DNA of 33,967 nucleotides. It comes from a virus. Shown one piece after another: positions 3,340 to 32,946 of this stretch. Position numbers and translations under genes: made by a program. The notes under the pieces are model-generated. The model was not told the origin of the DNA. It did not search any database and saw only the letters and a list, made by a program, of their open reading frames with translations. The stretch spans positions 1 to 33,967 of the IMG/VR virus record IMGVR_UViG_3300045135_001378; one strand, 5' to 3'. Each line of letters opens with the position of its first letter. The stretch's first letter is position 1.

Positions 3340-3556
3340 CATCGGGGTCTTCAGTATCCTCACCATAAGTAACTAAATTTTTAGTTTTTTCATCAAACCT
3401 CAACTGCCACTCAGCCACCATTTTTACCAATATGTTACCAAAATTTTTAAATGACGTAGAGTCTAGAAATAAATTTTTCTTTTCTTGTATAATCTTTATC
3501 TCTTTTTCTGAAAATTCTATGTCACAACTTCCATCAGCATATTGTTTAAACCTCAT
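3323..3556 (-). CDS. Small hypothetical protein, 77 residues
   Basis: A small soluble protein (MRFKQYADGSCDIEFSEKEI) with a short beta-hairpin-like start, a helical middle (KNFGNILVKMVAEWQLRF) and an acidic end (GEDTEDPDVNK). The sequence AAAGAGG lies five bases before the ATG. It overlaps the end of the upstream oxygenase gene by eleven bases and its own 3' end carries the promoter for the tail gene. No family recognised; small proteins of this kind often sit at the ends of accessory cassettes in marine phages. Function unknown. Confidence 0.65.
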   Translation of the reverse strand: MRFKQYADGSCDIEFSEKEIKIIQEKKNLFLDSTSFKNFGNILVKMVAEWQLRFDEKTKNLVTYGEDTEDPDVNKAP

Positions 3557-4196
3557 AAAAACCTCTTTCCTTTAATTGTTGTATTTTATTGTCTGATAAA
3601 GTTAAAAAACAATTTATAGAATATCTACTACCTTTTGTAATTTTTTCTGTGCCGTGTATCCATATTGGTTCTGCTGGGAAAAACATTGTATCACCTTTAC
3701 CTAAGACAACTTTATGTCTGCCATCAAAAAATCTAAATTCACCACCCTCGTAATCATCATTTAAATTTATCGTTAATGAACCTCTAATTTGTTTAGTAAT
3801 ATCTGAGTGATCTTTTATTTGAGTTCCTTCTTCGTATTTTAATATTCTTATATTATCAGTTTGACTAATATGCATATCATTAAAAGTAGGACAAATTTCT
3901 TTTTGAATATACTCAACATAAGTTTTTAAACAATAAGATACAATCTCTACAGCTTTAGCAAAAACAGGTTGAAGTATTTCATTTTTGATATGATGTTCTG
4001 ATAAACTTAAACACTTATAGTTATCCCACACAATTTTTTTTTCATCATACTTATAGCTTTGTTCCTTAGTTTGTAAATTTGGAAATTTATCAAACGCCCA
4101 CTTAAAGCGTTCACACCAATAACTCGAAACAAATTTTTTCTGTATGTGTATTAAATCTGTAATTTTAAAATTATATTCGTTCGGGGAGTTTTGCAT
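3546..4196 (-). CDS. 2-oxoglutarate/Fe(II)-dependent oxygenase (prolyl 4-hydroxylase-like)
   Basis: With the start at 4196 the protein has 216 residues. The double-stranded beta-helix motifs are clear: H130-x-D132 (IKDHSD), a GGEFRFFDG strand turn at 151-159, the distal His181 (WIHGTEKI) and Arg191 (GSRYSIN) for 2-oxoglutarate. The family oxidises C-H bonds with O2, Fe(II) and 2-oxoglutarate; the substrate here is unknown. I chose ATG 4196 because GGAAG stands eight bases before it; upstream ATGs at 4229 and 4259 lack a ribosome-binding site and would deepen the overlap with the preceding gene (26 bases as annotated). It is the last of three consecutive oxygenase genes. Close relatives act on proteins, but small-molecule substrates are possible. 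Confidence 0.85.
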   Translation of the reverse strand: MQNSPNEYNFKITDLIHIQKKFVSSYWCERFKWAFDKFPNLQTKEQSYKYDEKKIVWDNYKCLSLSEHHIKNEILQPVFAKAVEIVSYCLKTYVEYIQKEICPTFNDMHISQTDNIRILKYEEGTQIKDHSDITKQIRGSLTINLNDDYEGGEFRFFDGRHKVVLGKGDTMFFPAEPIWIHGTEKITKGSRYSINCFLTLSDNKIQQLKERGFYEV

Positions 4197-4743
4197 TTTC
4201 TTTACTTCCAGTTGTATCTCTTTGATCATTCTTGTAATCTTTGTAAGGACCGTTAGCATCTACATAATGTAAAAAAATTTGAGAATGCCAATCACCTTGA
4301 AATTCTTCTCGCCAATGTTCAACCTCACACCCGAGATATAAAACAGCATCACCTGGTTGCATCTCTAATGCTGTGCCTTCTATGTAAATAGGCCAAGGTG
4401 TTTTATCTGAACCAACCATCACTGTGCATGATATCTCACAAGAGGGTCTATCTTTATGTTTTTTTAGATCTGCATATTTTGTATACATTCTCCAAAAACT
4501 GTAAGTTGGGTTTAATTTAAGATTAGTTTCTTCTTCCATTTTTTTTCTTTTGCTTATTAACAATGCATCAGTTGCTGGGTTGCCATAGTTCATTGTGTCC
4601 ATAGTGATTGATTGTTGGGTATCAAATGACGAATCGTTTCTTTGATGAAATAAAATTGTAAAATGTTTTAATAATTCTGTTTCTTCTTTTGCTAAAAAGT
4701 TTTTTACAAGTTTGTATTTTAAATCTCTTATACTGCCCAACAT
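4171..4743 (-). CDS. 2-oxoglutarate/Fe(II)-dependent oxygenase family protein
   Basis: The 190-residue protein carries H96-x-D98 within LKKHKDRPSCEIS, a hydrophobic core strand (TVMVGSDKTPWPIYIEG), a turn LEMQPGDAVLYLG typical of the region before the distal ligand, and His143 in EVEHWREEF. The 2-oxoglutarate Arg expected about ten residues later is not obvious: the region reads DWHSQIFLHYV, with Gln155, so cosubstrate binding may use Arg145 or differ. It is the middle of three overlapping oxygenase genes (16 bases shared with the upstream gene, 26 with the downstream). The protein differs from its neighbours in sequence, so this is not a recent duplication. Substrate unknown. Confidence 0.8.
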   Translation of the reverse strand: MLGSIRDLKYKLVKNFLAKEETELLKHFTILFHQRNDSSFDTQQSITMDTMNYGNPATDALLISKRKKMEEETNLKLNPTYSFWRMYTKYADLKKHKDRPSCEISCTVMVGSDKTPWPIYIEGTALEMQPGDAVLYLGCEVEHWREEFQGDWHSQIFLHYVDANGPYKDYKNDQRDTTGSKENAKLPERI

Positions 4744-5303
4744 ACTGCTGAATACCTTATACCTTTCTCTACTGGTGTTACTCTATGAGGAAACATAAAA
4801 TTTGAAGGCCAAACAATCATTCTATTTTTCTTAGGTTCAATTTCTAAACTTTCATCTTTTGCAGGAAAAGCAAATTGTAATTTACCACCTTCGTAACCAT
4901 CATTTAAATAAAATATACAACTTATTTTTCTGTTTAAATAAAGTCCATGATCTACATGCCAAGTGTAGTGACCTCCAGGTTCATATTTTAATATTTGTGA
5001 ACCTTCAAGTCTTGATATTGTTTGCGAAGGTAATTTATTTTCTTCGATATATGAACCAATACATTCTTTAAAAATTTTATTAAAAACATGAGCCCAATGA
5101 ATTTCAGTCATTGATTGAGAATCGAATTGCAAATGTTTCACAAGTGTGTTTCTAGTTTCTTTTTCAATAAATCCTTTATCTTTTTTTTCATTCAATATTT
5201 CAGCATATTCAAAATTTAAGTCTTTGACCCATTTTAAAATAACTTCTAAAGTTTCATTGTTAATAGTGTTATCTATTATTTTTATACAGTCTTTTATTTC
5301 CAT
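4728..5303 (-). CDS. PKHD-type 2-oxoglutarate/Fe(II) hydroxylase
   Basis: A complete 191-residue PKHD/prolyl-4-hydroxylase-type domain. ILKYEPGGHYTWHVDHG gives His116 and Asp118; CIFYLNDGYEGGKLQF is the hallmark strand-turn-strand; FPHRV gives distal His173 and KGIRYSAVCW gives Arg183. Residues 1-100 are the usual N-terminal helical half. It is the first of three tandem oxygenases and overlaps the upstream DUF6065-like gene by ten bases. No strong ribosome-binding sequence precedes the ATG, consistent with coupling. The family hydroxylates protein side chains or small molecules; I cannot tell the substrate from sequence. Confidence 0.9.
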   Translation of the reverse strand: MEIKDCIKIIDNTINNETLEVILKWVKDLNFEYAEILNEKKDKGFIEKETRNTLVKHLQFDSQSMTEIHWAHVFNKIFKECIGSYIEENKLPSQTISRLEGSQILKYEPGGHYTWHVDHGLYLNRKISCIFYLNDGYEGGKLQFAFPAKDESLEIEPKKNRMIVWPSNFMFPHRVTPVEKGIRYSAVCWAV

Positions 5304-6037
5304 GATTTTTTAGACCAAAAAACTGTTTTGTATGCATGCATTAATTTTTGTTTTAATTTAAAACCAGTCCATCTTGGATCTTCTTTTGCAACTTGTACTT
5401 TCATTTTCCAAGCATCTCTTTTAAAAGGAATTACTTGTGCAACAGGTGTGTCCACTTTTATAGTTGTAATCATCTCTGGATACTTATCACCATTAAGTAT
5501 TATTGGAAAATTTATATGTAAGTTATATTTATCTGTATCAACTATACCTGGAATAATTTGAAATCTGTCATCTGGATTATTCATAGGTGGTAAAAACAAA
5601 CAAGAGTAACCTGGTGGTGTTTGTATTAGCCAAGGGTTCATTATTTTATAAAAAGGTAAATCTTTGTTTTTTTTTAAGTGAGGGCATTCACCGACTTGAA
5701 AAGGTGCATGTGTTTCTCTATTGTCAAAATTTAAATTAAGACCTTGATCTATAACCCATTGCCCTAAAGATTCATAACCCCATTTAACAAAACTATCTTT
5801 ATTACCATCATTATTAGTTACATTATGCTGAATTAGCATATCTTGTGGCATTTTTATTAAATAACCTGATGTTAAAGAATCTAAAATAGGCATACAACCT
5901 TTCATGGTAGGTATACCAACATTATGTTTTAAATCTTTAAACCATTTGGGTATATGTAACTTTATTGGTTCTGGAAGTGCAACGTTTTGATCTAAATACT
6001 CTTTTGGCGCTGAAAAAATTATTTCCTTTTCAAACAT
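5294..6037 (-). CDS. DUF6065-like protein, 247 residues
   Basis: The pattern PWLIQTPPGYS (135-145), GIVDTDKYNLHINFP (164-178) and TPVAQVIPFKRDAWK (197-211) matches what I remember of the phage family DUF6065; the family name is from memory and not verified. The fold looks beta-rich, with possible metal or substrate residues (His175, Asp167, Asp169), but no known catalytic set. It is the first gene of a block that continues with three 2OG oxygenases, overlapping the next gene by ten bases, which suggests a shared modification pathway or shared substrate. The N-terminus (MFEKEIIFSAPKEYL) has no signal peptide. Confidence 0.7.
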   Translation of the reverse strand: MFEKEIIFSAPKEYLDQNVALPEPIKLHIPKWFKDLKHNVGIPTMKGCMPILDSLTSGYLIKMPQDMLIQHNVTNNDGNKDSFVKWGYESLGQWVIDQGLNLNFDNRETHAPFQVGECPHLKKNKDLPFYKIMNPWLIQTPPGYSCLFLPPMNNPDDRFQIIPGIVDTDKYNLHINFPIILNGDKYPEMITTIKVDTPVAQVIPFKRDAWKMKVQVAKEDPRWTGFKLKQKLMHAYKTVFWSKKSWK

Positions 6038-6053
6038 CCATGTCTTTTACTAC

Positions 6054-6512
6054 TTATAGACAAAGCTGTAAAGGACTAACATAATCTTGACTTATGCTTT
6101 CTAGGTATTGTTCAAATGTTTTATCAGTAGGCCAAGTTATTGATGAAGTATCCCAACCATTTAAAAAATTTAAATAAGTTTGTGTTTCAGTTCTAAGATA
6201 TGTTTTTCCATCATCAATCCAAGCTTTACAAGTATCAATGTGTGATTGCTTAATAGCTTCCATCATATTTTTAGCAAGTTCTTGAGTTTCATTTGCTATA
6301 ACATCAGATCTAGTACTAAGTGTATCTCCATCATTACCGTCAAGTTGAGTAGTACCATTTTTAATATTATTAAAAACTGTATCGGAAATTTCTACAACTC
6401 TTATATCACTGCTTACTAAATTTTCAGCAGTAGACCAATCTGAAGTAGATACAATACCTACTACTGATGAATCAGAACCAGATGCAGAGTTTGAAAAAAG
6501 TGCTTTTGCCAT
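6054..6512 (-). CDS. Hypothetical tail-region protein, 152 residues
   Basis: The protein begins MAKALFSNSASGSDSSVVGI, a Ser-rich polar start, followed by a mixed region and a long helix (about 75-115, ETQELAKNMMEAIKQSHIDT) and a Trp-containing end (GWDTSSITWPTDK). AGGAG sits six bases before the ATG. It follows the glycine-rich tail fibre gene by one base, where tail-fibre chaperones or small tail proteins are often encoded; that role is only an inference from position. No named family recognised. Confidence 0.65.
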   Translation of the reverse strand: MAKALFSNSASGSDSSVVGIVSTSDWSTAENLVSSDIRVVEISDTVFNNIKNGTTQLDGNDGDTLSTRSDVIANETQELAKNMMEAIKQSHIDTCKAWIDDGKTYLRTETQTYLNFLNGWDTSSITWPTDKTFEQYLESISQDYVSPLQLCL

Positions 6513-6513
6513 A

Positions 6514-7773
6514 TTACGCTCCTGTATTTTCTAAAATAAATACTCTTCCAGATTGACCATTGTTTCCACCAGACATATTATTTCCTGGCATTGAAGTTCC
6601 ACCATTACCGCCATTACCAAATGATGTAGCAACAAGATAGCTTCTAAAATTATTAGTTAAATCCATTTTTGCACCTGGAGCGGTTCCAGCATTTCCGTTT
6701 GGTCCAGCTTGGTTGTATTGATGATATCCTGCTCCGTTACCAGCGTTAGCCGTTCCAACATTTGTTAACGTAGTTGCAGTTCCTGCATTACCTGCATTAC
6801 CGTTTCCTGGATTAGGGTTTCCACTACCTTTGTTACCTCCTGATCCAACTGTGTAAGGGTAACTAACAGGGGAACTTATTGGAGATCCAAAAAAACCAAA
6901 TCCACCTTTTCCTCCAGTACCGCCAGGACAACATTGTGAACCTCCAGCGCCTCCGCCTCCGCCTCCCCATAAAAGGGCTGCAACATAACCTGCGTTAGCA
7001 TTTGAACTATAGGTTCCAGGACTTGATGCATATAATTTTGGTTCGAATCCACCACCACCTGCACTTCCATCCGAAGCTGCAGTCAATCTTCCTTGAGCAT
7101 CAACAGTGATAGATGCAGAAGTGTAAGATCCAGCAGTTACCGCAGTGTTAGCAAGTTGATCAGCACCAACAGCATCATCTGCAATCATTGCAGATTGCAC
7201 TTGTACTTCACTAATCGCACCTGCTGTCGTAGCACCTAAGACTCTATTGTCTGTTGATGTGTGTTGCATTTTTGCATAAGTCACTTGATCGTCACCGATT
7301 TTATCTGTAGTCACGGCACCATCTGCGATTTGAGCCGCAGCAACTGTGCCACCTAAAGTGTCTAAAGATACTTCGTTTAAATTAGTTCCGTCTGAGTAAG
7401 CTGCATAAATTTTTGCTGCATCAATTGTAAAACCTGTTCCACTTGCAGTTTTAATTGTTAAATTTGTAGGAGCTGTAATTGCTGTACAGTCAAAAATATA
7501 AAATTTTTCAATACTGTCTGGTATCGTAACTATAGTTGCTCCTGTTAAAGTAATTGTTGCGAATTTAATAATCATGTTACGTGCATTTGATAATGCAGCG
7601 TTTGACATTACTAAAGCAGTTGTATCCGAATCTGTAATTGTAACTGATTCGTATCCTGCTACAGCTTGTTGAATTAGATTTAAATTTGTGTTTGTTTTAT
7701 CACCCCATGTACCAGCGTTTTCACCGGTTGCCATTAGTTCTAGTTTAAGGTCACTTGAGTATGTTGATGCCAT
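6514..7773 (-). CDS. Tail fibre protein with glycine-rich tip
   Basis: The 419-residue protein has three parts. Residues 1-130 (MASTYSSDLKLELMATGENA then GTWGDKTNTNLNLI) form a phage tail-fibre head with a beta-rich body. Residues 145-235 contain repeats of the type AAQIADGAVTTDKIGDDQV and SAMIADDAVGADQLANTAVT, which in fibres form trimeric shaft repeats. From about 236 to the end the sequence is extremely Gly/Asn-rich (LLWGGGGGGAGGS, GNPNPGNGNAGNAG), like the polyglycine adhesin domains of T4-type gp38. A receptor-binding role at the cell surface is inferred. AGGAG stands ten bases before the ATG. Tight glycine loops are typically exchanged by recombination. Confidence 0.82.
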   Translation of the reverse strand: MASTYSSDLKLELMATGENAGTWGDKTNTNLNLIQQAVAGYESVTITDSDTTALVMSNAALSNARNMIIKFATITLTGATIVTIPDSIEKFYIFDCTAITAPTNLTIKTASGTGFTIDAAKIYAAYSDGTNLNEVSLDTLGGTVAAAQIADGAVTTDKIGDDQVTYAKMQHTSTDNRVLGATTAGAISEVQVQSAMIADDAVGADQLANTAVTAGSYTSASITVDAQGRLTAASDGSAGGGGFEPKLYASSPGTYSSNANAGYVAALLWGGGGGGAGGSQCCPGGTGGKGGFGFFGSPISSPVSYPYTVGSGGNKGSGNPNPGNGNAGNAGTATTLTNVGTANAGNGAGYHQYNQAGPNGNAGTAPGAKMDLTNNFRSYLVATSFGNGGNGGTSMPGNNMSGGNNGQSGRVFILENTGA

Positions 7774-7810
7774 AAAATTAATTCTCCTAAATAATTATAT
7801 TTTACATTAA

Positions 7811-10800
7811 TCAGGCAGCTAAATCAACTGGTGTCCAAATATTAGCTACACCTGGGTCTATCTCAGACCATGCAGCGATATTAACTCCTGAAATACTGGT
7901 AGTCAATGCTTGGCCTGTAACATCAACTTCAACATTAATTACAGTGTTTTCCTCACCCATAGCCATTGTCATTGCTACCCCAGTAACTTCGTAAGTAGTG
8001 ACTTGAGAAACTTGTCCTGTACTACCTGCTAAAGACGAACCAGTTACAGGAACATCTGCATTAGCTTGAACTGTTTCTGTTCCAATAGATGTGGTTAAAG
8101 AAGATCCAGAAACGACTACATTACCATCTGCTGTGACTATTTCGTTGCCTATCGAACTTGTTAATTCTATACCTGTAATAACAACATCTGCGTTTGCTGT
8201 AATTTGGCTTATTGAACCAATAGAAGTAGTTAATGATGATCCTACTGCTTCTGGAGAAACTCCAATATCAATATTTATAGAATTTACTGCTGTATCAAGT
8301 TGATCTTCAAATACATTTACAAATTGATTACCATCAGCATTAATATCAACAGGACTGATTGACATGTTAGCTTGATTACCCACAATATTGAAAGTTGAAA
8401 CAGGTCCAACACTAGAAGTTAAAGAGATACCTGTTAAAGTTAAATTTGCATCTCCAGTAATTTCTAATTGTCCAGAAGAAGAGGTAATTACTTGACCAGT
8501 CGGTGTTACATTTGCATCTGCTGTAATAGATTCAATAGATCCTACAGACGTAGTAGCAGATACGGATCCTGTTTGAACTGAATACGCATCTCCCCATACC
8601 ATCGTACCCCAAGCATCTCTACCCCAACCAGATCCAATTAAATAATTTTCATCTACGGTTGCTGTACCAACAGAACTACTTAAAGATGATCCAGTGACAG
8701 GCACACCTATACCGATATCTTCTTCACCACCTGTTGCAGTAAGAGTTTGACCAGTAACTAATACGTCTACAGAAGTTCCACCTGCAGGAATTGAATTTAC
8801 AGCAGTACCTAGCGTACGTTTATAATTTGTTACCGCAGTCCCTTCTTCAATTTGTATACCCCAAACTTCAAAACTTAAATCTTCACTAGAGTTGGCATCT
8901 AATTTGAAATGAGTTCCTGCTTGACCACCATCTGATGATGTGTATGTATTAGTAACAGTAACTGCTGAATGATTTTTGTCTATTCTTGTCCACTCAGTAG
9001 TCGATAATGAATTAAAATTTATATTCCAACTACCTTGAGCAGCATTTTGTGGGTTGTTAAATTGTAATGCAGTCGATGATCCACTTACTCTTTTTATATA
9101 AAAAGACGCTTCAAGAGCTTCACCAGACGCTGAATAATTTGTAGCTATTACATCAAAAACGTCAGAGTATGTACCGCCAGGTGTATTATTACCTTGAATA
9201 TTATCAATTAAAGTAGATGTTTTGGTTCCGTCTGGAGCTATTCCGTAATTTGCAGTTGCTGTACAATTACCTCGTTTAGTATAATTTGATTGAGATAAAT
9301 CTTGTGAGTAAGCTTGGAAGTTTGTGCCTGCAAAATTTACAGTGGTTGCAATACCTGTAACATCTGCATCAGAATTTGCTTGTGTAGTTACGGATCCAAT
9401 ACTTGTTGAAGCTGAGCTTCCTGTTACAACAAAATTTGGTTGTAATTCTCCCCAACTGTTTTCACCCCATGAGTCTCCACCCCAACCTTCTTCAATAATG
9501 GCAGTTACAACAGGAGTACCTATTGAACTTGATAAAAGTCCTGCAGTCGTTAGATTTACAACATCACCCGTACCTGGAACAAGTGTTCCAATAGATGATG
9601 ATACTGAAATTCCTGATTGTGAAATATCAACTGAAGTTCCGCCTGCAAAAATTGAACTTACAGCTGTGCCAAAAGTCGGTTTGTAATTTGTTAATGCAGT
9701 TTGTTCTTCTACCTGTGCTCCAAATAAAATAACTCCTGGATCATCAGCTGCCGATCCATTAAGTTGAATTCCTACATTTGTATTTGGTTTGTCAAAACTT
9801 GATTCATACCGGACCGTTAATCTAAACCTATACCAGCCATCTCCATAATCGACTGAATCTCCCTCAACAAAACTAACTTCTGAACTTTGAGCAGTTCCAG
9901 TTCTTACTCCATTCGATATGTTAAATTGTACATTGGCTCTTTGTGCACTATTACCAATTTCCATTTGGAAAGTGCCACCAGTTCCGCCAGCGCTGTTTTT
10001 TGCAAAAATACTAAATGTTTGTATGTCTCCTGGAGATGGAGTGTTGAAACCAAATTTAAATAAAACTTTTGTCCCTGTATCTACTCCATTACCTGTTAAT
10101 GTTGTTGCATCTTTTGTGCCAAAAGGAGAAAGAGCAGCATTACTTGTGACGGTTGCTCTAAATTGATTAGGGAAACTTGAATCTAAATCTACAGAATTAA
10201 CAACTTGGTTTTCTCCTGCAAAATTTACAGTAGTTTGTATACCTGTAACGCTTACATCAGCATTTGCTTGCAATGTTAAAGAACTTGAAACTGCAGCGTT
10301 TACTGTTGGTTTAAAATTACTTATAGAATTTTGTTCTACTTGCGCTCCCCATACTAAAACATCTGCATCAGTTTGTCCTGCATATGTACTCGGGTTATAT
10401 CTCTGGGTTGTGTTTACATTATTTGTAAACGCCAAAATGTAGGAAGTTGCACTTCCAGCTCCGTTAACAGGAGCAATACATCTATACCATCCGTTTCCAA
10501 CATCAATCATAGTTGGAGCAGAAGGTGTATTATAATTTCCTACAGCACCTGTAGTAAGATTGAAATTTGCATATATTACTTGCCCACCACCTGAAGTTAT
10601 TTGTATCCAATCTGGAGCGTTGGCTCCTGTCCCTTTTTTAAAATAAACACTAAATGTACCAGCAATATTATTATCAGGAAAAATACTGTTAAATTCCCAA
10701 AAGTGGTTATTTACGTTAGTGAGCTCATTTACTAAATTTGCTGTATTTGTACCATCAGGTGCTAAACCTACATTTTTTGTTGCGCCTACATTACGTCTAT

Positions 10801-11293
10801 TCCAAGCACTGTTGGTAAAATCTTTTGAATATCTAGCTAGGTTTTCACCTAGTACATTTATTGTAGTTGATACTCCTGTAACTGAAACAGATACATCATT
10901 TTGAGCACTCCAAGAATTTTCAGACCAAGTTAATACTCCCCAGGTGTCAGAAGCAGGTGTGTTTGCTTGTCCACCCATACCAGAGTGTGCTGTACAATAA
11001 TAATATAAAGTTGGTGCAGAATTTGCTACAGAAATTTGAACGTAAGCTCCTACATCTCCTGCGTTTCCAGATGTGGTAACTCCAGTGGTGTATTCACTTC
11101 CTCCACCATGAGATCCATCAGAAGTTGTTGAAAATCTAAATGGGTGTCCACTTACAGAACTGTCGGAAACATCAAATTTATATACGCCACCTTCAGCTAA
11201 ATTTATTGTGGCTTGTTGTACGCCATCAATAAAGTATTTATTGCCCGCTCCAGTAGAAACAACTGTGACTGTAAATGTACGAGTAATTGACAC
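7811..11293 (-). CDS. Large modular tail adhesin with cupredoxin and lectin-like domains
   Basis: The 1160-residue protein starts at GTG, with AGGAG nine bases before it. Residues 1-110 look like a cupredoxin: GHPFRFS gives His50, and LYYYCTAHSGMGG gives Cys100, His103 and Met106, a C-x2-H-x2-M spacing like amicyanin. Three lectin-like sandwiches follow (about 145-340, 355-545, 650-845) with the pattern ENLARYSKDF...APDGT...NGWYRC...VWGAQVEQ. Trp-rich linkers (GGDSWGENSWGEL, GWGRDAWGTMVWGD) separate blocks, and the C-terminal 250 residues carry 22-residue repeats of the VTGSSLTTSIG type. A host-surface-binding virion protein is the likely role; copper binding is inferred from residues only. 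Truncated or alternative forms could arise by recombination between repeats. Confidence 0.85.
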   Translation of the reverse strand: MSITRTFTVTVVSTGAGNKYFIDGVQQATINLAEGGVYKFDVSDSSVSGHPFRFSTTSDGSHGGGSEYTTGVTTSGNAGDVGAYVQISVANSAPTLYYYCTAHSGMGGQANTPASDTWGVLTWSENSWSAQNDVSVSVTGVSTTINVLGENLARYSKDFTNSAWNRRNVGATKNVGLAPDGTNTANLVNELTNVNNHFWEFNSIFPDNNIAGTFSVYFKKGTGANAPDWIQITSGGGQVIYANFNLTTGAVGNYNTPSAPTMIDVGNGWYRCIAPVNGAGSATSYILAFTNNVNTTQRYNPSTYAGQTDADVLVWGAQVEQNSISNFKPTVNAAVSSSLTLQANADVSVTGIQTTVNFAGENQVVNSVDLDSSFPNQFRATVTSNAALSPFGTKDATTLTGNGVDTGTKVLFKFGFNTPSPGDIQTFSIFAKNSAGGTGGTFQMEIGNSAQRANVQFNISNGVRTGTAQSSEVSFVEGDSVDYGDGWYRFRLTVRYESSFDKPNTNVGIQLNGSAADDPGVILFGAQVEEQTALTNYKPTFGTAVSSIFAGGTSVDISQSGISVSSSIGTLVPGTGDVVNLTTAGLLSSSIGTPVVTAIIEEGWGGDSWGENSWGELQPNFVVTGSSASTSIGSVTTQANSDADVTGIATTVNFAGTNFQAYSQDLSQSNYTKRGNCTATANYGIAPDGTKTSTLIDNIQGNNTPGGTYSDVFDVIATNYSASGEALEASFYIKRVSGSSTALQFNNPQNAAQGSWNINFNSLSTTEWTRIDKNHSAVTVTNTYTSSDGGQAGTHFKLDANSSEDLSFEVWGIQIEEGTAVTNYKRTLGTAVNSIPAGGTSVDVLVTGQTLTATGGEEDIGIGVPVTGSSLSSSVGTATVDENYLIGSGWGRDAWGTMVWGDAYSVQTGSVSATTSVGSIESITADANVTPTGQVITSSSGQLEITGDANLTLTGISLTSSVGPVSTFNIVGNQANMSISPVDINADGNQFVNVFEDQLDTAVNSINIDIGVSPEAVGSSLTTSIGSISQITANADVVITGIELTSSIGNEIVTADGNVVVSGSSLTTSIGTETVQANADVPVTGSSLAGSTGQVSQVTTYEVTGVAMTMAMGEENTVINVEVDVTGQALTTSISGVNIAAWSEIDPGVANIWTPVDLAA
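8037..8237 (-). repeat. Tandem 66-69-base repeats in the adhesin gene
   Basis: Three diverged units start at 8037, 8103 and 8169 and each encodes about 22 residues of the form ADVVITGIELTSSIGNE. Similar single units recur elsewhere in the gene between Trp-rich linkers. They lie inside an open frame and change length by multiples of three, so they are protein repeats, not a separate element. Confidence 0.7.
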
Positions 11294-11311
11294 CGAAACG
11301 GGCTCCTATCA

Positions 11312-11761: not shown

Positions 11762-11780
11762 AATTGTTCTCCTTTATTAA

Positions 11781-12865: not shown

Positions 12866-12867
12866 TT

Positions 12868-13853: not shown

Positions 13854-14330
13854 CTAGACTAAGTCTACAGCTTTTCCAATCACAGGTTTATATTTAGTTT
13901 TACCCTCTGATTTATAAGCATGTAAAAATTGTTTCCTAGGTTGATCTGGAGTATAGCTGCAGTGTATCCAACCACTGTTCGGCTCACCAGGAGTATAGAA
14001 TTCCAATATCAATTGGTCATAATCTAGGTTCTTGTTAATCCAATCAGCTAACTCAGCGTTATCTGTTCCCATCACTTCGAAGTCTGCGGCCTCGGCCTTG
14101 GCATGCTGTGAATTTACAGAGCTACCTATTTTTAAACACAACTGTTCTGAACGGAATCCGCTGGTCACCTTGACCCTGCCGAAGTGGTCGCGCACGGGCT
14201 GTAAAATATTTTCACAAAGTGCTTTTAGTTTTTCTATTTGTCCTGAGTTAGGATTGTTATTGATGTCTAATCTAACAGCAGTGTCAGATTTAATTAATTC
14301 TTGTAAACTAAAATTTCTTGAAAGGTTCAT
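13854..14330 (-). CDS. Endolysin, peptidase M15 family (D-Ala-D-Ala carboxypeptidase/endopeptidase type)
   Basis: The 158-residue single-domain enzyme shows VTSGFRS (Arg60), SQHAKAEAADFEV with zinc ligands His76 and Asp83, LILEFY with Glu110 as catalytic base candidate, and GWIHCSY with His123. This is the complete M15A zinc peptidase set, cutting peptide bonds in peptidoglycan stems. There is no signal peptide, so release needs a holin. AGGAG is six bases from the ATG. The coding bases around 14080-14205 are far more GC-rich than the surroundings (27 of 40 in 14161-14200), suggesting segmental acquisition. The gene overlaps the upstream oxygenase by four bases. Confidence 0.9.
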   Translation of the reverse strand: MNLSRNFSLQELIKSDTAVRLDINNNPNSGQIEKLKALCENILQPVRDHFGRVKVTSGFRSEQLCLKIGSSVNSQHAKAEAADFEVMGTDNAELADWINKNLDYDQLILEFYTPGEPNSGWIHCSYTPDQPRKQFLHAYKSEGKTKYKPVIGKAVDLV

Positions 14331-14854
14331 ATGTATCTCCTATCTTCGTAAGCGTTAAAGCTTAACGCATATTTTGGAGTGTTGCTAGTGTTCCTGTTCG
14401 TATAATGAAACAGAAAACCGCTAAATATAGCAAAAGCTCCAGGTTCTGGTTTTATTTCTTCTCCAATTTGAGGAAAAAATAATTTCTGATCACTACTGTT
14501 TAAGTAAATAACTCCACCAAAAACAGATGGGAAATGTTTATGTTTTTTTGTATAACCACCCTTTGGTTCAATTAAACCCCAAACTTCTTCAATCATATAA
14601 CTCTCATAAAACAAATTATTTTGTTCTATGTAATCTTGTATAGGAAAAAAAGGAGTCCAAAACTTTTCATCTTTAGCAAAAAAATGCCAATTAGTCATTC
14701 CTCCCATGACATTAGTTTTTCCATTTAAATTATCATTACTCAGAACTTGTTCATCTATTTTTTTTTTAAAATATTCAGTATCTATATCAAGAACACCAGT
14801 CATATAGACATAATCCTGTAGTATTTGTTTTTGGACTATTTTATTTAATTTCAT
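14327..14854 (-). CDS. 2OG-Fe(II) oxygenase with H-x-H motif
   Basis: The 175-residue protein has YTKKHKHFPSVFGGVIYLNS, giving His105-x-His107 in place of the commoner H-x-D, then LFFPQIGEEIKPEPGAFAIF, the distal His150 in FLFHYTNRN and KYALSFN with Lys161 in the usual Arg position. I associate H-x-H with the family Pfam calls 2OG-FeII_Oxy_5 (name from memory). Fe(II) and 2-oxoglutarate binding are inferred. It lies between the M15 lysin and a conserved hypothetical gene, overlapping both by four to fourteen bases. GGAAG precedes the ATG. It belongs to a different subfamily from the 3.5-5.3 kb oxygenases. Substrate unknown. Confidence 0.8.
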   Translation of the reverse strand: MKLNKIVQKQILQDYVYMTGVLDIDTEYFKKKIDEQVLSNDNLNGKTNVMGGMTNWHFFAKDEKFWTPFFPIQDYIEQNNLFYESYMIEEVWGLIEPKGGYTKKHKHFPSVFGGVIYLNSSDQKLFFPQIGEEIKPEPGAFAIFSGFLFHYTNRNTSNTPKYALSFNAYEDRRYI

Positions 14855-15497
14855 TCTGATTTTTTTCTTCCATATTATAAAACATTTTATCAGAATCTTC
14901 AGTTACAAATTTAGAATTTTCTGCATCCCAATACGTAGTTTGGACTTTATAATCTGGCCAACTGTTATCAGTAGTGTAACTATTAACATGCCACAAAATA
15001 CGATTATTAGGCTGAGCTGCATAATTACCGTTAGCAAGAGCCAATATATGCGCACACTTATGTTCTTGAGGAATTTCAGAGTGCTCCACATCCAAGATAT
15101 TAGTATCTGGATGAGCCCAATCAACAGTGAATAAATACTGTCCATGATAAAACTTTTTATCAAGGCCCAAAAATTTGCCATCTAAACCAGCCAACCAATC
15201 AAAGCGATGAACACTAGGCCAATAACTAAAACAATTCCACAATTCCAACTCGTGCGTCTGCATATCCGGCACATTGGTTCTATCATACGATTTTTGGAAA
15301 AACGCTGAGATAGGCAAACGCCAAAAGCATGCACCATTAGGTAACATGATATTAAATAAGATCGCACGTCCTGAAATACTTGTAAGACCGAAGACAACAC
15401 AGTCTTCACTCTCTCCATGATGTTTTTTAAGGTCATACAAAAACTCCTTACGTATTTTACAATAAATAGGTGGAATATTTGCGTTCAGATAAGCCAT
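14841..15497 (-). CDS. Conserved marine-phage hypothetical protein, 218 residues
   Basis: The protein starts MAYLNANIPPIYCKIRKEFL and is rich in Trp, Tyr, His and Asp throughout (ELWNCFSYWPSVHRFDWLAG, HGQYLFTVDWAHPDTN, ALANGNYAAQPNNRILWHVN). I recall proteins with the same start in many marine phage genomes, always without assigned function. There is no transmembrane segment. The many aromatic residues with Asn/Asp suggest a beta-rich binding or structural fold. No clear ribosome-binding site precedes the ATG, five bases after the stop of the upstream gene, so coupling is likely. It overlaps the H-x-H oxygenase gene by fourteen bases. Confidence 0.68.
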   Translation of the reverse strand: MAYLNANIPPIYCKIRKEFLYDLKKHHGESEDCVVFGLTSISGRAILFNIMLPNGACFWRLPISAFFQKSYDRTNVPDMQTHELELWNCFSYWPSVHRFDWLAGLDGKFLGLDKKFYHGQYLFTVDWAHPDTNILDVEHSEIPQEHKCAHILALANGNYAAQPNNRILWHVNSYTTDNSWPDYKVQTTYWDAENSKFVTEDSDKMFYNMEEKNQNEIK

Positions 15498-22427: not shown

Positions 22428-22436
22428 ATATCCTCC

Positions 22437-22883
22437 TTAATAATGGTGCAAGATATCTCTTGGATTTTTAATTGTTGAAATAACTTCATCATCATTCAAC
22501 ACTCTTACTTCTCCACCTTCAATCTTGAATCTTGAACCTGCGTACCTACTGAAAATAATCCAATCGTGTAGTTTACACCAAGGCCCTAACGGAAATTTAT
22601 CTTTGTCTCTGTAACAAAGATTACCCATTTTAAGAACGAGACCACAAACTGTAGTCATCTGTATGGTTTCTTGCGTTGTATCAGATAGGATAATACCACC
22701 CTTTGTTTTTTTAGGGCCAGCATAAGGCAATACTAAAATTCTATAGCCTGTTGGTGTTGGTAATCTATCTAATAATTTATCATTGATCGCTTTTGGATCT
22801 AGGACTGTTCTAACTTCTTCTTCGCTTTTATACGAGTCTTCAAGTTTACCAGTCCGTTTCGGTTTTACCGTGGACATTGTCAT
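22437..22883 (-). CDS. Phage GroES-like co-chaperonin
   Basis: The 148-residue protein has a ~40-residue N-terminal extension and then a Cpn10-like barrel: TPTGYRILVLPYAGPKK (44-59), KGGIILSDTTQET at 61-73 corresponding to the GroES mobile loop that contacts GroEL, VCGLVLKMGNLCYRDKDKFP, and WCKLHDWIIFSRYAGSRF with GGEVRVLNDDEVI. It would cap host GroEL for folding the capsid protein, as T4 gp31 does; that role is inferred. AGGAG precedes ATG 22883 by seven bases and the gene overlaps the upstream one by 38 bases. Confidence 0.85.
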   Translation of the reverse strand: MTMSTVKPKRTGKLEDSYKSEEEVRTVLDPKAINDKLLDRLPTPTGYRILVLPYAGPKKTKGGIILSDTTQETIQMTTVCGLVLKMGNLCYRDKDKFPLGPWCKLHDWIIFSRYAGSRFKIEGGEVRVLNDDEVISTIKNPRDILHHY

Positions 22884-23067
22884 CTTCTAACTCCTGTTTA
22901 TCAAGCAGGTCCTTTAGTTCCTGTTGCAAATCCTCAAGGGATTTGATTTGCCCTCTAACATATTGTAGTTGATCCATTGTGTCAACACTATATATAGCGG
23001 TGTCCTTGAGTTGAGCTAGTCTTTTTTTCAAATGTCTCTGCACTAATGATATTGTTTCAATATCCAT
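22846..23067 (-). CDS. Small coiled-coil protein, 73 residues
   Basis: A short, mostly helical protein: VQRHLKKRLAQLKDTAIYSV, MDQLQYVRGQIKSLEDLQQE and LKDLLDKQELEDDN show heptad-like Leu/Ile spacing. GAGGAG precedes the ATG. It overlaps both the upstream oxygenase (eleven bases) and the co-chaperonin. It could be a chaperone or assembly factor, but no family is recognised. Confidence 0.68.
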   Translation of the reverse strand: MDIETISLVQRHLKKRLAQLKDTAIYSVDTMDQLQYVRGQIKSLEDLQQELKDLLDKQELEDDNVHGKTETDW

Positions 23068-23590
23068 ATAACTCCTCCAATAGTGGAAAATAATTTATAT
23101 TAATGTTCATTCTGCAATGCGCATCAGTAGAAGTAGTTCCTCGATGTTTGATATTAGAACTAAAAATTATTAATCTATTTTTACTGCTTTCTATTTTTTC
23201 TCCAGTTTCAAATTCAGTAAATCCATTATTGGAATTTACATAATAAATTGCAGTTAAATTATCTTTGTAATCAATATGAAAACCATGTGTAATTATATTT
23301 TCTGTCATTGGTATACAATTTGCTTTTACTCGTACTAAAGATTTAATTTTCATTTTTTCTATTAATGGTTCAAGTGTAGGCCAAGCGTTTGACATAATTT
23401 TGTGTTTAAAATAAAAAGTATGTACAAATTGAAACTGGTGGTTAGGTTTTTCTTGTAGATGGTCAAATTCTGGATTTATTGAAGAAGAATAATACCATGG
23501 AAAAAAAGGATGTGTAAATTCTTGTTCTATTTTATCTGCTTCTTCTATACTTAGAAAATTATCTATTATTTTTACGTTTTCTGAAGACAA
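23057..23590 (-). CDS. 2OG-Fe(II) oxygenase, paralogue of the terminase-adjacent oxygenase
   Basis: The 177-residue protein contains FPWYYSSS (30-36), FVHTFYFKHK, the iron motif GFHIDYKD (His105, Asp107), YYVNSNNGFTEFETGEK, the distal IKHRGTTSTD (His149) and HCRMNININY (Arg160). The same series of motifs occurs in the protein encoded at 32461-32946, so the two are diverged paralogues. TTG is used as start codon, with GGGAG ten bases upstream, and the gene overlaps the methyltransferase gene by nineteen bases. It is unlike the PKHD types at 3.5-5.3 kb. Substrate unknown; pairing with a methyltransferase suggests protein or metabolite modification. Confidence 0.82.
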   Translation of the reverse strand: MSSENVKIIDNFLSIEEADKIEQEFTHPFFPWYYSSSINPEFDHLQEKPNHQFQFVHTFYFKHKIMSNAWPTLEPLIEKMKIKSLVRVKANCIPMTENIITHGFHIDYKDNLTAIYYVNSNNGFTEFETGEKIESSKNRLIIFSSNIKHRGTTSTDAHCRMNININYFPLLEELYGY

Positions 23591-24186
23591 ACTTTGTTTT
23601 CTCCCTTTTCAAATGTTTTGAAACCCCAATAAGACAAAACTTTGCTAATTAAATTCATATCATACACAAAATAATCATCAAAAATAAATCTTGTTCCTTT
23701 TCTAGATTTATCTGCGAACCATATAGCTTCTCTCATAACATCCATTGTTTTATGTGGCCCATCAAAATGAACTAAGTCAAAAATTTTTTTAGTTGAGTTG
23801 AATAAATTCATAAACTGAATGTCTGTTAAGTGATAAAAATTAAAATTTTTATTATTATTAAAATCTTTTACTAATTGTATCCTCATCTCGTCTGGATATA
23901 CAGGTGGTTTATCAGTCCACTTTCCATCTTGTTTCCATTTTAATCCACGTTCTTTCTGATTATCAAAATGCTCGTACTCTAAGCTTCCATAGGGATCGAC
24001 AGCTATATGCTCATATGGTTTATTACCAATTCTAGCTTTTGTAGCTAACATAATAACTTGTGATCCTAAACCTTCTCTAACACCTATTTCACATGTTGTA
24101 ACTGATTTAGGTTCTTCGAAAAATGGTAATGTCTCACACCATTTTTTTAGTAAATCGTATTCTGTTGAATCCCCTCTGATTGCCAT
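23572..24186 (-). CDS. Class I SAM-dependent methyltransferase
   Basis: The 204-residue protein has the Rossmann SAM motifs TCEIGVREGLGSQVIM (motif I, 31-46), EHIAVDPYGSLEYEHF (motif II with acidic Asp64) and FDLVHFDGPHKTMD (motif IV, FDxxHxDGxH as in small-molecule type methyltransferases). RFIFDDYFVYD follows. The target is unknown. A promoter-like sequence ends six bases before the ATG, and no ribosome-binding site is present. It is overlapped by a 2OG oxygenase gene, a common combination in sugar, amino-acid or nucleobase modification, here only inferred. No DNA-methyltransferase NPPY motif is visible. Confidence 0.82.
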   Translation of the reverse strand: MAIRGDSTEYDLLKKWCETLPFFEEPKSVTTCEIGVREGLGSQVIMLATKARIGNKPYEHIAVDPYGSLEYEHFDNQKERGLKWKQDGKWTDKPPVYPDEMRIQLVKDFNNNKNFNFYHLTDIQFMNLFNSTKKIFDLVHFDGPHKTMDVMREAIWFADKSRKGTRFIFDDYFVYDMNLISKVLSYWGFKTFEKGENKVCLQKT

Positions 24187-24192
24187 AGAGGC

Positions 24193-24220
24193 ACTATAAA
24201 GTTTATTTAAGCTTTTGCAA
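24193..24220 (-). promoter_or_regulatory. Promoter candidate for methyltransferase, near-leaderless
   Basis: Minus-strand TTGCAA (24220-24215), a 16-base spacer and TATAGT (24198-24193) are followed by six bases and the ATG, with no ribosome-binding site. The -35 box matches at four positions and the -10 at five. Part of it overlaps the end of the preceding gene. Confidence 0.4.
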
Positions 24221-25466: not shown

Positions 25467-25764
25467 TTTTATATTTCTCCTTACGTCTTAAACATAAATA
25501 ATTTATCATCATATTAAGCACTTGGAAAGCCTTAGCACCTGTAACTTTCCATCTGTAAATTCTTTGTCTATTTTCTCTTTCTTTTTCAAAATAAGTAAAT
25601 CCACACCTAAAAAAGTGTTTAAACCTTTTAATTAAGTCTTCATCTACCATTCCAACACTTAATTGGAACTGTCTTCGACTTTTTCCGTGACTGTGGTACC
25701 CAAAAGAACCTTCTCCATCAAAAAGTCCTGTTAAAAATATTAACTTAGCTTTTTTGCTTAACTT
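25414..25764 (-). pseudogene. LAGLIDADG homing endonuclease reading frame without start
   Basis: Reading the frame from 25764 gives KLSKKAKLIFLTGLFDGEGS and FGYHSHGKSRRQFQLSVGMV, so LFDGEGSFG is a clear LAGLIDADG-type motif followed by the usual helix. Downstream are RIYRWKVTGAKAFQVLNMMI and the basic end LRRKEKYKNVV. The in-frame region has no ATG, GTG or TTG before the motif; the first ATG (25650) would omit it. The frame opens inside the preceding 61-residue gene, in a +1 relation, and its last 53 bases run into the holin gene. It is either a decayed endonuclease or one expressed by frameshift. Confidence 0.7.
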
Positions 25765-25948
25765 ATCGTAGTCCGATAAATTTTTTACCTGTGACTTGTA
25801 CTTCCTTGATGCCTTTAATGTCAGATTTAGCTCCTGGTTCTCTATGAGGGCATCCTCCTGTTTTAAGACCTTGTGGTTGGGGTCCTTTTTCAGGTGGTGG
25901 CCCTTGTTTTATTCCACCGCTTGTTCCATTTAAATTATTTTTTTTCAA
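25763..25948 (-). CDS. Small conserved protein, 61 residues
   Basis: The sequence GGIKQGPPPEKGPQPQGLK followed by GGCPHREPGAKSDIKGIKEV and VTGKKFIGLR matches a small protein I remember after portal genes in marine phages. A Cys-His-Arg loop and a basic end are conserved features. No ATG exists in frame; TTG 25948 is the best start, overlapping the portal stop by fourteen bases, so coupling is plausible. A LAGLIDADG frame follows in the +1 phase. Role unknown; a head-neck or DNA-contact protein is possible. Confidence 0.6.
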   Translation of the reverse strand: MKKNNLNGTSGGIKQGPPPEKGPQPQGLKTGGCPHREPGAKSDIKGIKEVQVTGKKFIGLR

Positions 25949-28265: not shown

Positions 28266-28267
28266 AA

Positions 28268-30190: not shown

Positions 30191-30197
30191 TGTCCCT
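30183..30197 (-). promoter_or_regulatory. Hairpin over the start of the polyvalent-type gene
   Basis: AGGGACACTGTCCCT is an inverted repeat with arms of seven bases around one base; in RNA it would fold as a five-base stem with a CAGUG loop. It covers the GGAGGGACA ribosome-binding region and the GTG start lies at its centre, so it could lower translation. Confidence 0.35.
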
Positions 30198-30198
30198 C

Positions 30199-30978
30199 CT
30201 AGTATAATTTAGTAGGTTTGTTTTTACCTAGTTTGCATGCAACTTTAATAGACTTACCAGATTTATAACCCATAGGCTTTTGCATCATGCCACCACCCAT
30301 TTTACCAGTAACTCTAGAAATAAATCTATCTGCTTTCATAGGTGTGTTTTCATCAGTAACAGTATCTAACATACCAGCGATCGCAGAAGTAACTTTAAAA
30401 TTTTTATACTTTTTTGGTTTAGATTTTTGTCCTGCTCTTCCCGCAGGTCCTCTTCTTTTAGCTAGATCAGATTCTTCTGCAGGGCCTCCTGAAACTCTTT
30501 TAATCATGCCACCACCCATTTTTTTATCTTTCTTCATTTTAGATTTTAAAAATTGATGTGCAGCGACTCCTGCTCCAACTATAGGAAGTAATATTTTTCC
30601 AACTCTAGTTGCTTTCACTGCCTTAGCAACTCTTTCCCTACCTGTTCCAGTTTTTTTATCAATTACACCTTTTTCTTGAAGTTCATATTTTTTAGAAAAT
30701 GAATCATCATCTTTTACTCTAATACTTTTACCAACTCTTGCTTTCATAATTTTACCAGGTTTCATTTTTTCATCTTGTAAACCTTGACCTCTGCCTTTTG
30801 CTTTTTCTGCTTTTAAGATTTTAAAATCTTGTGCATCAATTCTGTTGTTATTATTTTTATCTAACTTCTTTTGTTTTCCTTTAAGACCACCTTTAGAAAA
30901 TTTGTCTTGTGACTTTTCTTTTTGCATAGCCATAAATTTTTTTCTTTTCTCAACATACTTTGGATCTTCTCTTCTCAT
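30199..30978 (-). CDS. Basic virion-type protein with EF-hand-like loop
   Basis: The 259-residue protein is strongly basic. Residues 40-51 read DKNNNNRIDAQD, which matches an EF-hand calcium loop at positions 1, 3, 5, 7, 9 and 12 (Asp40, Asn42, Asn44, Arg46, Asp48, Asp51) except that position 12 is Asp rather than Glu. The rest is Lys-rich with two GKMGGGM/KMGGGMI segments and a short hydrophobic stretch (KILLPIVGAGVAAHQFL). I recall DKDGDGKI-type loops of this sort in marine phage head proteins. Calcium binding and a capsid-internal, DNA-binding role are inferred. AGGAG precedes the ATG. Confidence 0.68.
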   Translation of the reverse strand: MRREDPKYVEKRKKFMAMQKEKSQDKFSKGGLKGKQKKLDKNNNNRIDAQDFKILKAEKAKGRGQGLQDEKMKPGKIMKARVGKSIRVKDDDSFSKKYELQEKGVIDKKTGTGRERVAKAVKATRVGKILLPIVGAGVAAHQFLKSKMKKDKKMGGGMIKRVSGGPAEESDLAKRRGPAGRAGQKSKPKKYKNFKVTSAIAGMLDTVTDENTPMKADRFISRVTGKMGGGMMQKPMGYKSGKSIKVACKLGKNKPTKLY

Positions 30979-30986
30979 AATTACTC

Positions 30987-32468
30987 CTAATAATATTTGT
31001 ACTCTTTTTCTAATTTCATTGGTGGGTCATCCCAATCATCAGAATAGGTACTTACAAATCCACCTTGTCTATATCTTAACACAGCTTGGGTCATACTGTC
31101 TACATAGTCATCATATTGACCATTAGGAAAAGCAGCACATTCCTCAATTACTTCTTGAGCAAAGTGCTCATCTAATGGAGCATATACCATACCCGATTCA
31201 AACACAGGGGCACAGCTATTTATACGTGTATGCTTATCTCTACCCCTTGCTGGAACATAATCAATAACAGGTATACCTGCACGTCTTAACTCATGTATCA
31301 AGGGTTGTCCTGAAGCTTTAGCCTCTACAATTACGGTTTCCGGTTCCCAGTATTGATATTGCTCTAAAGCAACATTTTTTAAATCGGGAAAGTCATAACG
31401 ACCCTTTTGTGCATCGAGAAGTATTATACATTTTTCATAACCTTCTACAGGTTCAAATATACCCCAGGTGGTGATTGCAGAATAATCAGCAGTTTCTTTT
31501 TTAGAAAATGCAGTATCATAACTTTGTATGACATGGAGCAATCTAGGGAGGTAATCCTTATCCCAGTCTTGCCACCATTCACGTTTTATGATTGCACCTT
31601 CTTCTGAAGTTGGGTCCTGCATGTATTGTGCGTTCCAGTTCTTCGTTGAGATAGATGCTTTGACAGAGTCTAAATCTTCTTTACTCCAATACTCAGGCCA
31701 TACAGGTTTATCGTTTGGTAGAATTGCAGGGAACTCAATTACTTTCCACTTGTCCGCTTTTGGTTCTGATTGAGCCTTCACTAAACGACCAGTGAGATCG
31801 TCTACCGCCCACCGGGTCATGACTACAAGAATACGGCCACCGGGTTGTAAACGTTGTCTTGGCCCAGAGCTATACCACTCGTAAGCACGATCCATGGCTG
31901 AATCAGACATTGAGTCTTGTTCAGTGTGTGGGTCATCGATAATAAGTAAATCCGCCCCTCGTCCTGTAATAGAACCGCCAACTCCCGCTGCAAAGTATTC
32001 TCCCCCGTGATTAGTCTCCCAACGGCCTTTTGCCTTACTATCTTCTCTGAGTGTAACATTTCCGAAGATCTGTTTATACTCCTTGGTGTTCATTAAGTTT
32101 CGAACCTTACTACCGAACCTTGATGCTAGTTCAGCATTGTGTGATACCTGCATTATTTTTTTCTTTGGATACTTTCCAATATACCAAGCAGGAAACAAAT
32201 AAGATGCAAATTCAGATTTAGTATGTCTAGGAGGCATATTAATGATGAGCCTCTTTGCATCCCCGTCAGCTATATCTTGAAATGCTTCAGCGATAATTTG
32301 GTGGTGCCCATATTTCTTTGGGTCCTTTGTTTTACGATAAATAAAATCTTGCCATACAGCTTCTGCAAAAATCAAAAAATTATCTTGGCATAACTTGATC
32401 CACTGTAATTGCTTCTGGAGTATTAAATCTTTTAATTCTTCTTCTGAAAGTTGATCTGTATTAAACAT
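30987..32468 (-). CDS. terL: Terminase large subunit (ATPase and nuclease)
   Basis: The 493-residue DNA-packaging motor has an ATPase domain with the Walker A-like MPPRHTKS (78-85), Walker B LLIIDDP (174-180), motif III RILVVMTRWAVDD, and a nuclease domain with QSYDTAF (Asp318), VEAKASGQP (Glu382) and QYDDYVDSM (Asp453 and Asp457). It cuts concatemers and pumps DNA through the portal. It overlaps the preceding oxygenase gene by eight bases. No small terminase subunit was recognised beside it, although one of the unassigned genes to the right could fill that role. Confidence 0.95.
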   Translation of the reverse strand: MFNTDQLSEEELKDLILQKQLQWIKLCQDNFLIFAEAVWQDFIYRKTKDPKKYGHHQIIAEAFQDIADGDAKRLIINMPPRHTKSEFASYLFPAWYIGKYPKKKIMQVSHNAELASRFGSKVRNLMNTKEYKQIFGNVTLREDSKAKGRWETNHGGEYFAAGVGGSITGRGADLLIIDDPHTEQDSMSDSAMDRAYEWYSSGPRQRLQPGGRILVVMTRWAVDDLTGRLVKAQSEPKADKWKVIEFPAILPNDKPVWPEYWSKEDLDSVKASISTKNWNAQYMQDPTSEEGAIIKREWWQDWDKDYLPRLLHVIQSYDTAFSKKETADYSAITTWGIFEPVEGYEKCIILLDAQKGRYDFPDLKNVALEQYQYWEPETVIVEAKASGQPLIHELRRAGIPVIDYVPARGRDKHTRINSCAPVFESGMVYAPLDEHFAQEVIEECAAFPNGQYDDYVDSMTQAVLRYRQGGFVSTYSDDWDDPPMKLEKEYKYY

Positions 32469-32946
32469 AATTTATATTTACATTTATTCTTAAATTCTCA
32501 TCAGTTTGCGTGGTGCTTCTATGGTCTTCTAATCCATTAAACAACAGCATTCTATTCTCTACTGAATAAACCTTCTCTCCTGAACCTTTAAACTGTGTAT
32601 AACCATTATTACTATTTACACTAAACAAGGCTACTTTATGTGGAGAGTCTCTGTCAACATGGTAATCATGAGTTACAGGGTCCTTTACATATGTATAACA
32701 ATTAGCACGTACATGTAATATATGTTGAAAATTTAATTGTCCTAATATTGGATGTATAAGATCAAACCAATCACTTAACTGTTTACCATCTCTATAAAAG
32801 TTGTGAACGAAATAAAAACTTTTATTTTTTTCATTCTTAAATGCAACGTTATCACTATAGTACCAGGGAAAATCTTTATCAAAGAATTTATTTTTTAATA
32901 AATTCATTGTGTTTGGGTCCTTTATAAAATTATCTATAAACTTCAT
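32461..32946 (-). CDS. 2OG-Fe(II) oxygenase at the head of the late operon
   Basis: With ATG 32946 the protein is 161 residues: FPWYYSDN (26-33), YFVHNFYRDGK, VRANCYTYVKD, iron ligands His96 and Asp98 in HDYHVDRD, then NSNNGYTQFKGSGEK, His142 in EDHRSTTQTDE and Arg153 in LRINVNINY. It is paralogous to the oxygenase at 23057-23590. A GTG at 33108 would add 54 residues, but that stretch overlaps hairpins and the promoter candidate and aligns with nothing in the paralogue, so I reject it. The gene is the first of the terminase operon. Confidence 0.82.
   Translation of the reverse strand: MKFIDNFIKDPNTMNLLKNKFFDKDFPWYYSDNVAFKNEKNKSFYFVHNFYRDGKQLSDWFDLIHPILGQLNFQHILHVRANCYTYVKDPVTHDYHVDRDSPHKVALFSVNSNNGYTQFKGSGEKVYSVENRMLLFNGLEDHRSTTQTDENLRINVNINYV

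Follow-up and report, generated by a model that had tools for sequence, protein, structure and literature searches.

Six prolyl-hydroxylase-like oxygenase genes in a pelagiphage fragment and the re-identification of two phage protein families

The linear virus record IMGVR_UViG_3300045135_001378 of IMG/VR (33,967 b, hereafter the window) carries six genes, p1 to p6, whose products have the iron-binding motifs of 2-oxoglutarate (2OG)/Fe(II) oxygenases. It was found that all six proteins almost certainly combine a double-stranded beta-helix with a conserved metal site. Two of their families, PHROG 2954 (p2, named 'ferrochelatase') and PHROG 274 (p5 and p6, named 'DNA endonuclease V'), are very probably misnamed, their modelled folds being prolyl-hydroxylase-like. 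The re-identification of these two families is what is new; a high oxygenase count is not new and is ordinary for this phage group.

A first-pass annotation, made from the sequence alone, had listed six genes with an H-x-D or H-x-H motif and a distal His and had sorted them into at least four subtypes. All six open reading frames (ORFs) and their motifs were recovered at the positions given there (Table 1), and they fall into four PHROG families, namely 61 (p1 and p3), 2954 (p2), 81 (p4) and 274 (p5 and p6, which are paralogues with 35% identity). In Pfam searches, p1, p3 and p4 scored above the cut-off and p5 gave a weak PF13640 match below it, while no Pfam 2OG family was matched by p2 or p6. 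The match of p3 to the PiuC-type NCBIfam model was also below the cut-off. The start of p1 is an internal ATG within a longer ORF.

Conservation of the metal site was counted in cleaned alignments of relatives, dereplicated at 90%. The triad was kept in 12/12 relatives of p1, 73/74 of p2, 109/109 of p3, 12/12 of p4, 38/39 of p5 and 20/20 of p6. Because the triads are conserved across dereplicated relatives, the motifs of the six genes are, on the evidence of these alignments, not due to chance. A 2-His-1-carboxylate triad of near-invariant H-x-D...H form is present in p1, p2, p3, p5 and p6, the carboxylate among the 109 p3 relatives being Asp in 102 and Glu in seven; p4 alone departs from it, with H-x-H...H in all 12 relatives. 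An Arg 10-11 residues after the distal His, the position for the C5 carboxylate of 2OG, occurs in p1, p3, p5 and p6; p4 has Lys there, and half of its relatives have Arg. The gene said in the first-pass annotation to lack the usual Arg is p2, in which R85, R145, Q155 and H159 are conserved instead. Three PHROG 274-like paralogues, given here by locus label and position (L155:1104-1583, L323:13002-13460 and L329:3515-3994), have no H-x-D motif and are possibly decayed or non-enzymatic.

For p2 and p6, profiles run against Protein Data Bank (PDB) sequences returned nothing useful, and fold comparison alone was informative. AlphaFold2 models built with relatives in the alignment reached a predicted local distance difference test (pLDDT) score of 96 for p6 and 93 for p2. 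The top Foldseek matches of p6 in the PDB were the Dictyostelium prolyl hydroxylase (PHD) and human PHD2 (E 2.6e-7), and those of p2 were human PHD2 and the Pseudomonas prolyl 4-hydroxylase (P4H), including its EF-Tu complex (E 9.5e-9), with a template modelling (TM) score of ~0.65 in both cases. The PDB structures ranked 1 to 50 by fold for these proteins were all PHD/P4H enzymes or a bacterial 2OG oxygenase, and neither AlkB nor TET was among them. PHD2/EGLN1 and Pseudomonas P4H share the H-x-D...H triad with p2 and p6, but sequence identity is only ~10-18%, and the Arg that binds 2OG in these enzymes is missing from its usual place in p2. Among viral predicted structures, the matches of p2 were several prolyl-hydroxylase-like proteins of phages and the 'ferrochelatase' of a Synechococcus phage. 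The beta-helix was thus recognized via Pfam in p1, p3 and p4, via AlphaFold2 and Foldseek in p2 and p6, and via identity to p6 in p5; the oxygenase fold proposed earlier is borne out, and a lack of helix or triad in most of the six, which would have spoken against it, was checked for and not observed.

The names of the two families were examined against the domains that they imply. The true ferrochelatase domain PF00762 (~317 positions) was found in 0/12 phages searched and in 8/14 control genomes, and it had no match among 45 p2 relatives. PF03013, the domain of T4 DenV (pyrimidine-dimer glycosylase), is absent from the window and from the HTVC023P-type phages searched. It does occur in P-SSM7 (at 130731) and in Mosig (at 114605), in genes other than those named denV: the P-SSM7 gene named denV, PSSM7_188, is a PHROG 274 oxygenase, and the genuine DenV-type gene (GU071103.1 130731-131240; L433:732-1241) is annotated as 'hypothetical protein'. 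In HTVC023P-type phages, eight distinct 2OG types and an adjacent 'ferrochelatase' have been described, and the adjacency was interpreted as an oxygenase beside a heme-iron enzyme (PMC9599517); PHROG 61 and PHROG 2954 have also been given as two enriched categories (PMC11561400). Since the PHROG 2954 fold is very probably prolyl-hydroxylase-like, the published 'oxygenase plus ferrochelatase' partnerships are in all likelihood oxygenase plus oxygenase, the partner being another PHD-like fold.

The window is, judged by its terminase and late gene order, a fragment of an HTVC023P-type (SAR11-infecting) ocean pelagiphage. Its terminase large subunit (TerL) is 70% identical to that of Pelagibacter phage HTVC023P (61-70% across HTVC023P, HTVC027P and 023Pt_psg01), and it shares with these phages the backbone TerL-portal-GroES-capsid-tail, the late gene order with its neighbours, and 2OG genes close to the PHROG 3287 tail gene. 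Because known HTVC023P-type genomes measure ~58-61 kb, the genome is incomplete and six oxygenases are a minimum. HTVC023P-type isolates have 3-4 2OG genes each, compared with six in the 34 kb of the window; both p2 and p3 are present in HTVC023P, and p2 is missing from HTVC027P. In four merged PHROG searches, other records of the group with any such gene had 1-11, and several had none (two of those 44-54 kb long); a 63-kb relative (the record of L023, L087 and L260) has counterparts of p1, p2, p3, p5 and p6. The T4-like marine phages searched here, HTVC008M (~20 copies), Mosig EXVC030M (12) and P-SSM7 (12), have the same four PHROG families as the window; with cyanophage S-SCSM1, for which 24 2OG genes are reported (PMC9602691), they differ in their larger genomes and ~12-24 copies. 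In Mosig EXVC030M, a tail fibre gene is followed downstream by a run of 2OG-like genes. The earlier view that six oxygenases imply a substantial chemical programme is therefore reasonable, but the number itself is ordinary, given 3-11 copies in each relative of roughly 50-63 kb with any such gene and the counts of HTVC008M and S-SCSM1.

Three of the genes form a block on the tail side of the genome, in which p3, p2 and p1 are flanked by a DUF6065-like gene on one side and by the PHROG 3287 tail gene on the other. Successive overlaps, starting with that of the DUF6065-like gene and p3, are 10, 16 and 26 nt. In relatives, p3 stands immediately upstream of p2 for 51/75 scored distinct p2 genes, mostly with an overlap of 12 or 15 nt. 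The third position, occupied by p1 in the window, is variable and holds a p1-, p4-, p5- or p6-type gene or is empty. In 16 contigs, a single protein has p2 as its N-terminal half and a p1/p3-like oxygenase as its C-terminal half. Because of this pairing, overlap and fusion, p2 and a canonical oxygenase very likely act together, and it is considered probable that p3 and p2 do so. The DUF6065-like gene is beside p3-p2 in 40/67 scored loci, and its product is possibly part of the same module.

The relation of this block to the tail was assessed in 80 loci that were retrieved with the PHROG 3287 tail gene as query, never with an oxygenase; these are the best of >600 matches, and the result holds for tail genes close to that of the window. 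Upstream sequence of 3.5 kb or more was available for 40 of them, and in each of these 40 the slot contains one or more 2OG genes (p3 in 38, p2 in 33). The density of 2OG genes in the tail slot is 0.42 per kb; loci selected by terminase, 891 kb in total, have 0.020 per kb, a ~20-fold difference. Among 12 terminase-chosen genomes with an intact PHROG 3287 gene, 10 have a 2OG gene within ~1.5 kb of it; in DSL-LC04, the sole 2OG gene is 6.5 kb away, and G002 is entirely without one. Sufficient sequence upstream was available for 47 p2 genes, and 38 of these have a Gly-rich or fibre-family ORF within 3.8 kb on that side; the strict Gly-rich class alone accounts for 28/47, and the corresponding share for points placed at random in five long related genomes is 1-4%. 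In other phages, the gene ahead of a fused p2 is mostly tail-collar-like, in some cases with collagen or C1q repeats, and DegT aminotransferase and GT25-like genes come after several of the fused genes. At L175:2-919, L185:5779-6627 and L335:856-5393, a collagen-like/collar fibre gene, a fused p2-oxygenase and a GT25-like glycosyltransferase are consecutive, an order reminiscent of collagen hydroxylation and glycosylation.

Relatives of p2 are also found in bacteria. Rhizobacter sp. Root1221 and Massilia atriviolacea have an operon (L332:2046-8092 and L336:435-5857) that encodes a protein of GTEMSPG repeats, with 22 and 15 TxMSPG units at the two loci, together with a possible second oxygenase, an FkbM methyltransferase, a p2 homologue, a P4H-like oxygenase and an aldo/keto reductase. 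The succession of p2 homologue and P4H-like oxygenase is comparable to the phage pair; the operon differs in being chromosomal, in containing the repeat protein, methyltransferase and reductase, and in having no fibre genes. From its gene content it looks like a repeat-peptide modification system, and, as the p2 homologue and the repeat protein share an operon, repetitive peptides may be what p2 enzymes act on. A literature search for the GTEMSPG repeat found no paper.

The explanation preferred here, to which about an even chance is given as a whole, is that all six proteins are small Fe(II)-binding oxygenases of prolyl-hydroxylase (PHD/P4H) type fold, as profiles, triads and, for p2 and p6, structure models indicate, and that the tail-side block would serve as a fibre-maturation module. 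In this module, p3 would be the canonical 2OG hydroxylase and p2 a variant that is translated together with p3 as its partner, and the third enzyme, p1, would be exchangeable. The action proposed for p3-p2(-p1) late in infection is hydroxylation of side chains of the tail-fibre proteins encoded just upstream, which may change fibre stability or receptor binding; p4, p5 and p6 would be single-gene units of the late structural operon acting on other targets. That a tail fibre is the substrate is plausible, though held with somewhat less than even confidence. Among the targets offered by the first-pass annotation, a virion protein is thus backed by position for p3-p2-p1, and nothing was found for the host surface or metabolites. 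A wider and rather doubtful proposal is that p3-p2 is a two-enzyme system hydroxylating Gly/Pro-rich repeats, namely those of the receptor-binding fibre tips of phages and of the GTEMSPG-repeat protein that some bacteria have. By analogy with collagen, hydroxylation of fibre tips is perhaps a step before glycosylation.

Several observations weigh against a dedicated fibre chemistry or limit the case for it. One genome, G002, has the PHROG 3287 tail gene and zero 2OG genes, which shows that this tail can do without the chemistry. In P-SSM7, the p2 homologue is surrounded by replication genes and not by fibre genes, and p4, p5 and p6 are not adjacent to fibre genes. A Pro-Gly motif, seen as [ST]APGA in many of the Gly-rich fibres, gave by eye a hint of co-variation with p2, but only two p2-negative loci had that fibre. 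The IMG/VR contigs are partly redundant, and the counts overstate independence.

Other explanations differ mainly in the substrate. Hydroxylation of a host protein such as EF-Tu or a ribosomal protein, as Pseudomonas P4H does on EF-Tu, is suggested by the Foldseek matches, which include P. putida P4H and the EF-Tu complex 4iw3; however, a substrate is not given by fold resemblance, and the late-operon placement next to fibres speaks against it, so that it is regarded as unlikely. It has been proposed for cyanophages that such enzymes have a metabolic role (PMC3037559), in which they would consume 2OG or alter host nitrogen/energy signalling. Phages with at least 20 copies, S-SCSM1 among them (PMC9602691), and the increase of host iron uptake genes during HTVC027P infection (PMC12753301) are in keeping with this role. 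A single enzyme would be enough to use up 2OG, however, and the role does not account for why p3 and p2 are paired and fused, why the genes are concentrated in the tail slot or why four divergent families each keep motifs of their own; it is considered improbable. A function in DNA modification or repair (AlkB/TET-like), drawn from the 'DNA endonuclease V' label and the cyanophage p2 locus, is very improbable: the P-SSM7 p2 homologue does adjoin clamp-loader genes and dam, and 2/45 p2 relatives weakly match PF13532 (an AlkB-like Pfam family), but the best PDB folds include neither AlkB nor TET, the HTVC023P-type pelagiphages searched are without PF03013, and P-SSM7 and Mosig each encode true DenV in a gene of its own. 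A heme/iron partnership, with p2 as a ferrochelatase working with the oxygenases, rests on the names used in PHROG, GenBank, PMC9599517 and PMC11561400; it is already contradicted by the distribution of PF00762 and by the 190-aa, PHD-like p2, and is hardly credible.

A further possibility is that p4, p5 and p6 are mobile selfish cargo, tolerated in late-operon slots and of no strong function. By comparison of loci, p5 and p6 are demonstrably mobile cassettes. The single-gene p5 cassette is cleanly missing from 18/34 comparable loci, and p6 is a ~480 bp cassette exactly at the TerL start (borders 32462..32942). Its start is an internal ATG, and the 54 residues upstream of that ATG correspond to an extended TerL N-terminus in relatives. 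Among 82 comparable loci, the p6 slot is empty in 73 (gap ~0-16 bp in most), upstream DNA being joined straight to TerL, contains a p6 relative in six and an unrelated GNAT-like gene in three (L011:1384-1902, L038:3737-4189 and L016:4453-4905). In view of these three loci, use of the TerL slot is not taken to be exclusive to oxygenases. The clean empty sites, the use of the slot by a GNAT-like gene and the loss of the triad in some PHROG 274 paralogues favour selfish cargo, but nearly every member of the p4-p6 families retains the triad; because of this, most copies are under selection, and selfish cargo is distinctly unlikely.

That marine phages carry 2OG genes in multiple copies has been reported repeatedly and has lacked an explanation. 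The correction of the two names removes a wrong lead, since neither a heme enzyme nor a DNA-repair enzyme is left in the set. Ecological conclusions drawn on PHROG 2954 as 'ferrochelatase' (PMC9599517, PMC11561400) would come to concern a prolyl-hydroxylase-like protein pair. With the concentration in the tail slot, what were 'auxiliary metabolic genes of unknown role' become the subject of a claim about fibres that can be tested. If the Gly/Pro-repeat proposal were true, the fibre specificity of abundant ocean phages would depend on oxygen-requiring post-translational chemistry.

Table 1. Positions of the oxygenase genes and neighbouring features in the window, where all genes treated here are on the minus strand
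Feature	Position	Strand	Family, motif or basis
p1, PHD/P4H-like 2OG-Fe(II) oxygenase	3546..4196	-	PF13640, PHROG 61; H130-x-D132 (H130-S-D), H181, R191
p2, PHD-like double-stranded beta-helix protein	4171..4743	-	PHROG 2954 'ferrochelatase'; H96-x-D98 (H96-K-D), H143
p3, PHD/PKHD-like 2OG-Fe(II) oxygenase	4728..5303	-	PF13640 (1e-21), PHROG 61; H116-V-D, H173
p4, oxygenase	14327..14854	-	PF13759, PHROG 81; H105-x-H107 (H105-K-H107), H150, K161
p5, oxygenase	23057..23590	-	PHROG 274 ('DNA endonuclease V'); H105-x-D107 (H105-I-D), H149, R160
p6, oxygenase	32461..32946	-	PHROG 274; H96-x-D98 (H96-V-D), H142, R153; AlphaFold2 model PHD-like
Tail/virion structural protein bordering the oxygenase slot	1131..3305	-	PHROG 3287
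DUF6065-like protein	5294..6037	-	PHROG 7084; 10-nt overlap with p3; conserved neighbour above p3-p2
152-aa protein between the fibre gene and the DUF6065-like gene	6054..6512	-	-
Gly-rich fibre protein, candidate substrate	6514..7773	-	PF21722
Tail fibre protein, long and repetitive, as an alternative candidate for the substrate	7811..11293	-	-
Terminase large subunit (TerL)	30987..32468	-	70% identical to HTVC023P; identifies phage group

The p4 slot lies between a conserved gene (14841-15497) and an M15 peptidase gene, and one relative has a PHROG 274 oxygenase there. The 218-aa product of this conserved gene is assigned to PHROG 3704 'ferredoxin' (E 1e-78) and had no match in a Pfam search; the name may be wrong. 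Elsewhere in the window, a GroES-like co-chaperonin is encoded within the head operon (22437-22883), and a Methyltransf_24 protein is encoded at 23572-24186, a slot at which many relatives also have one.

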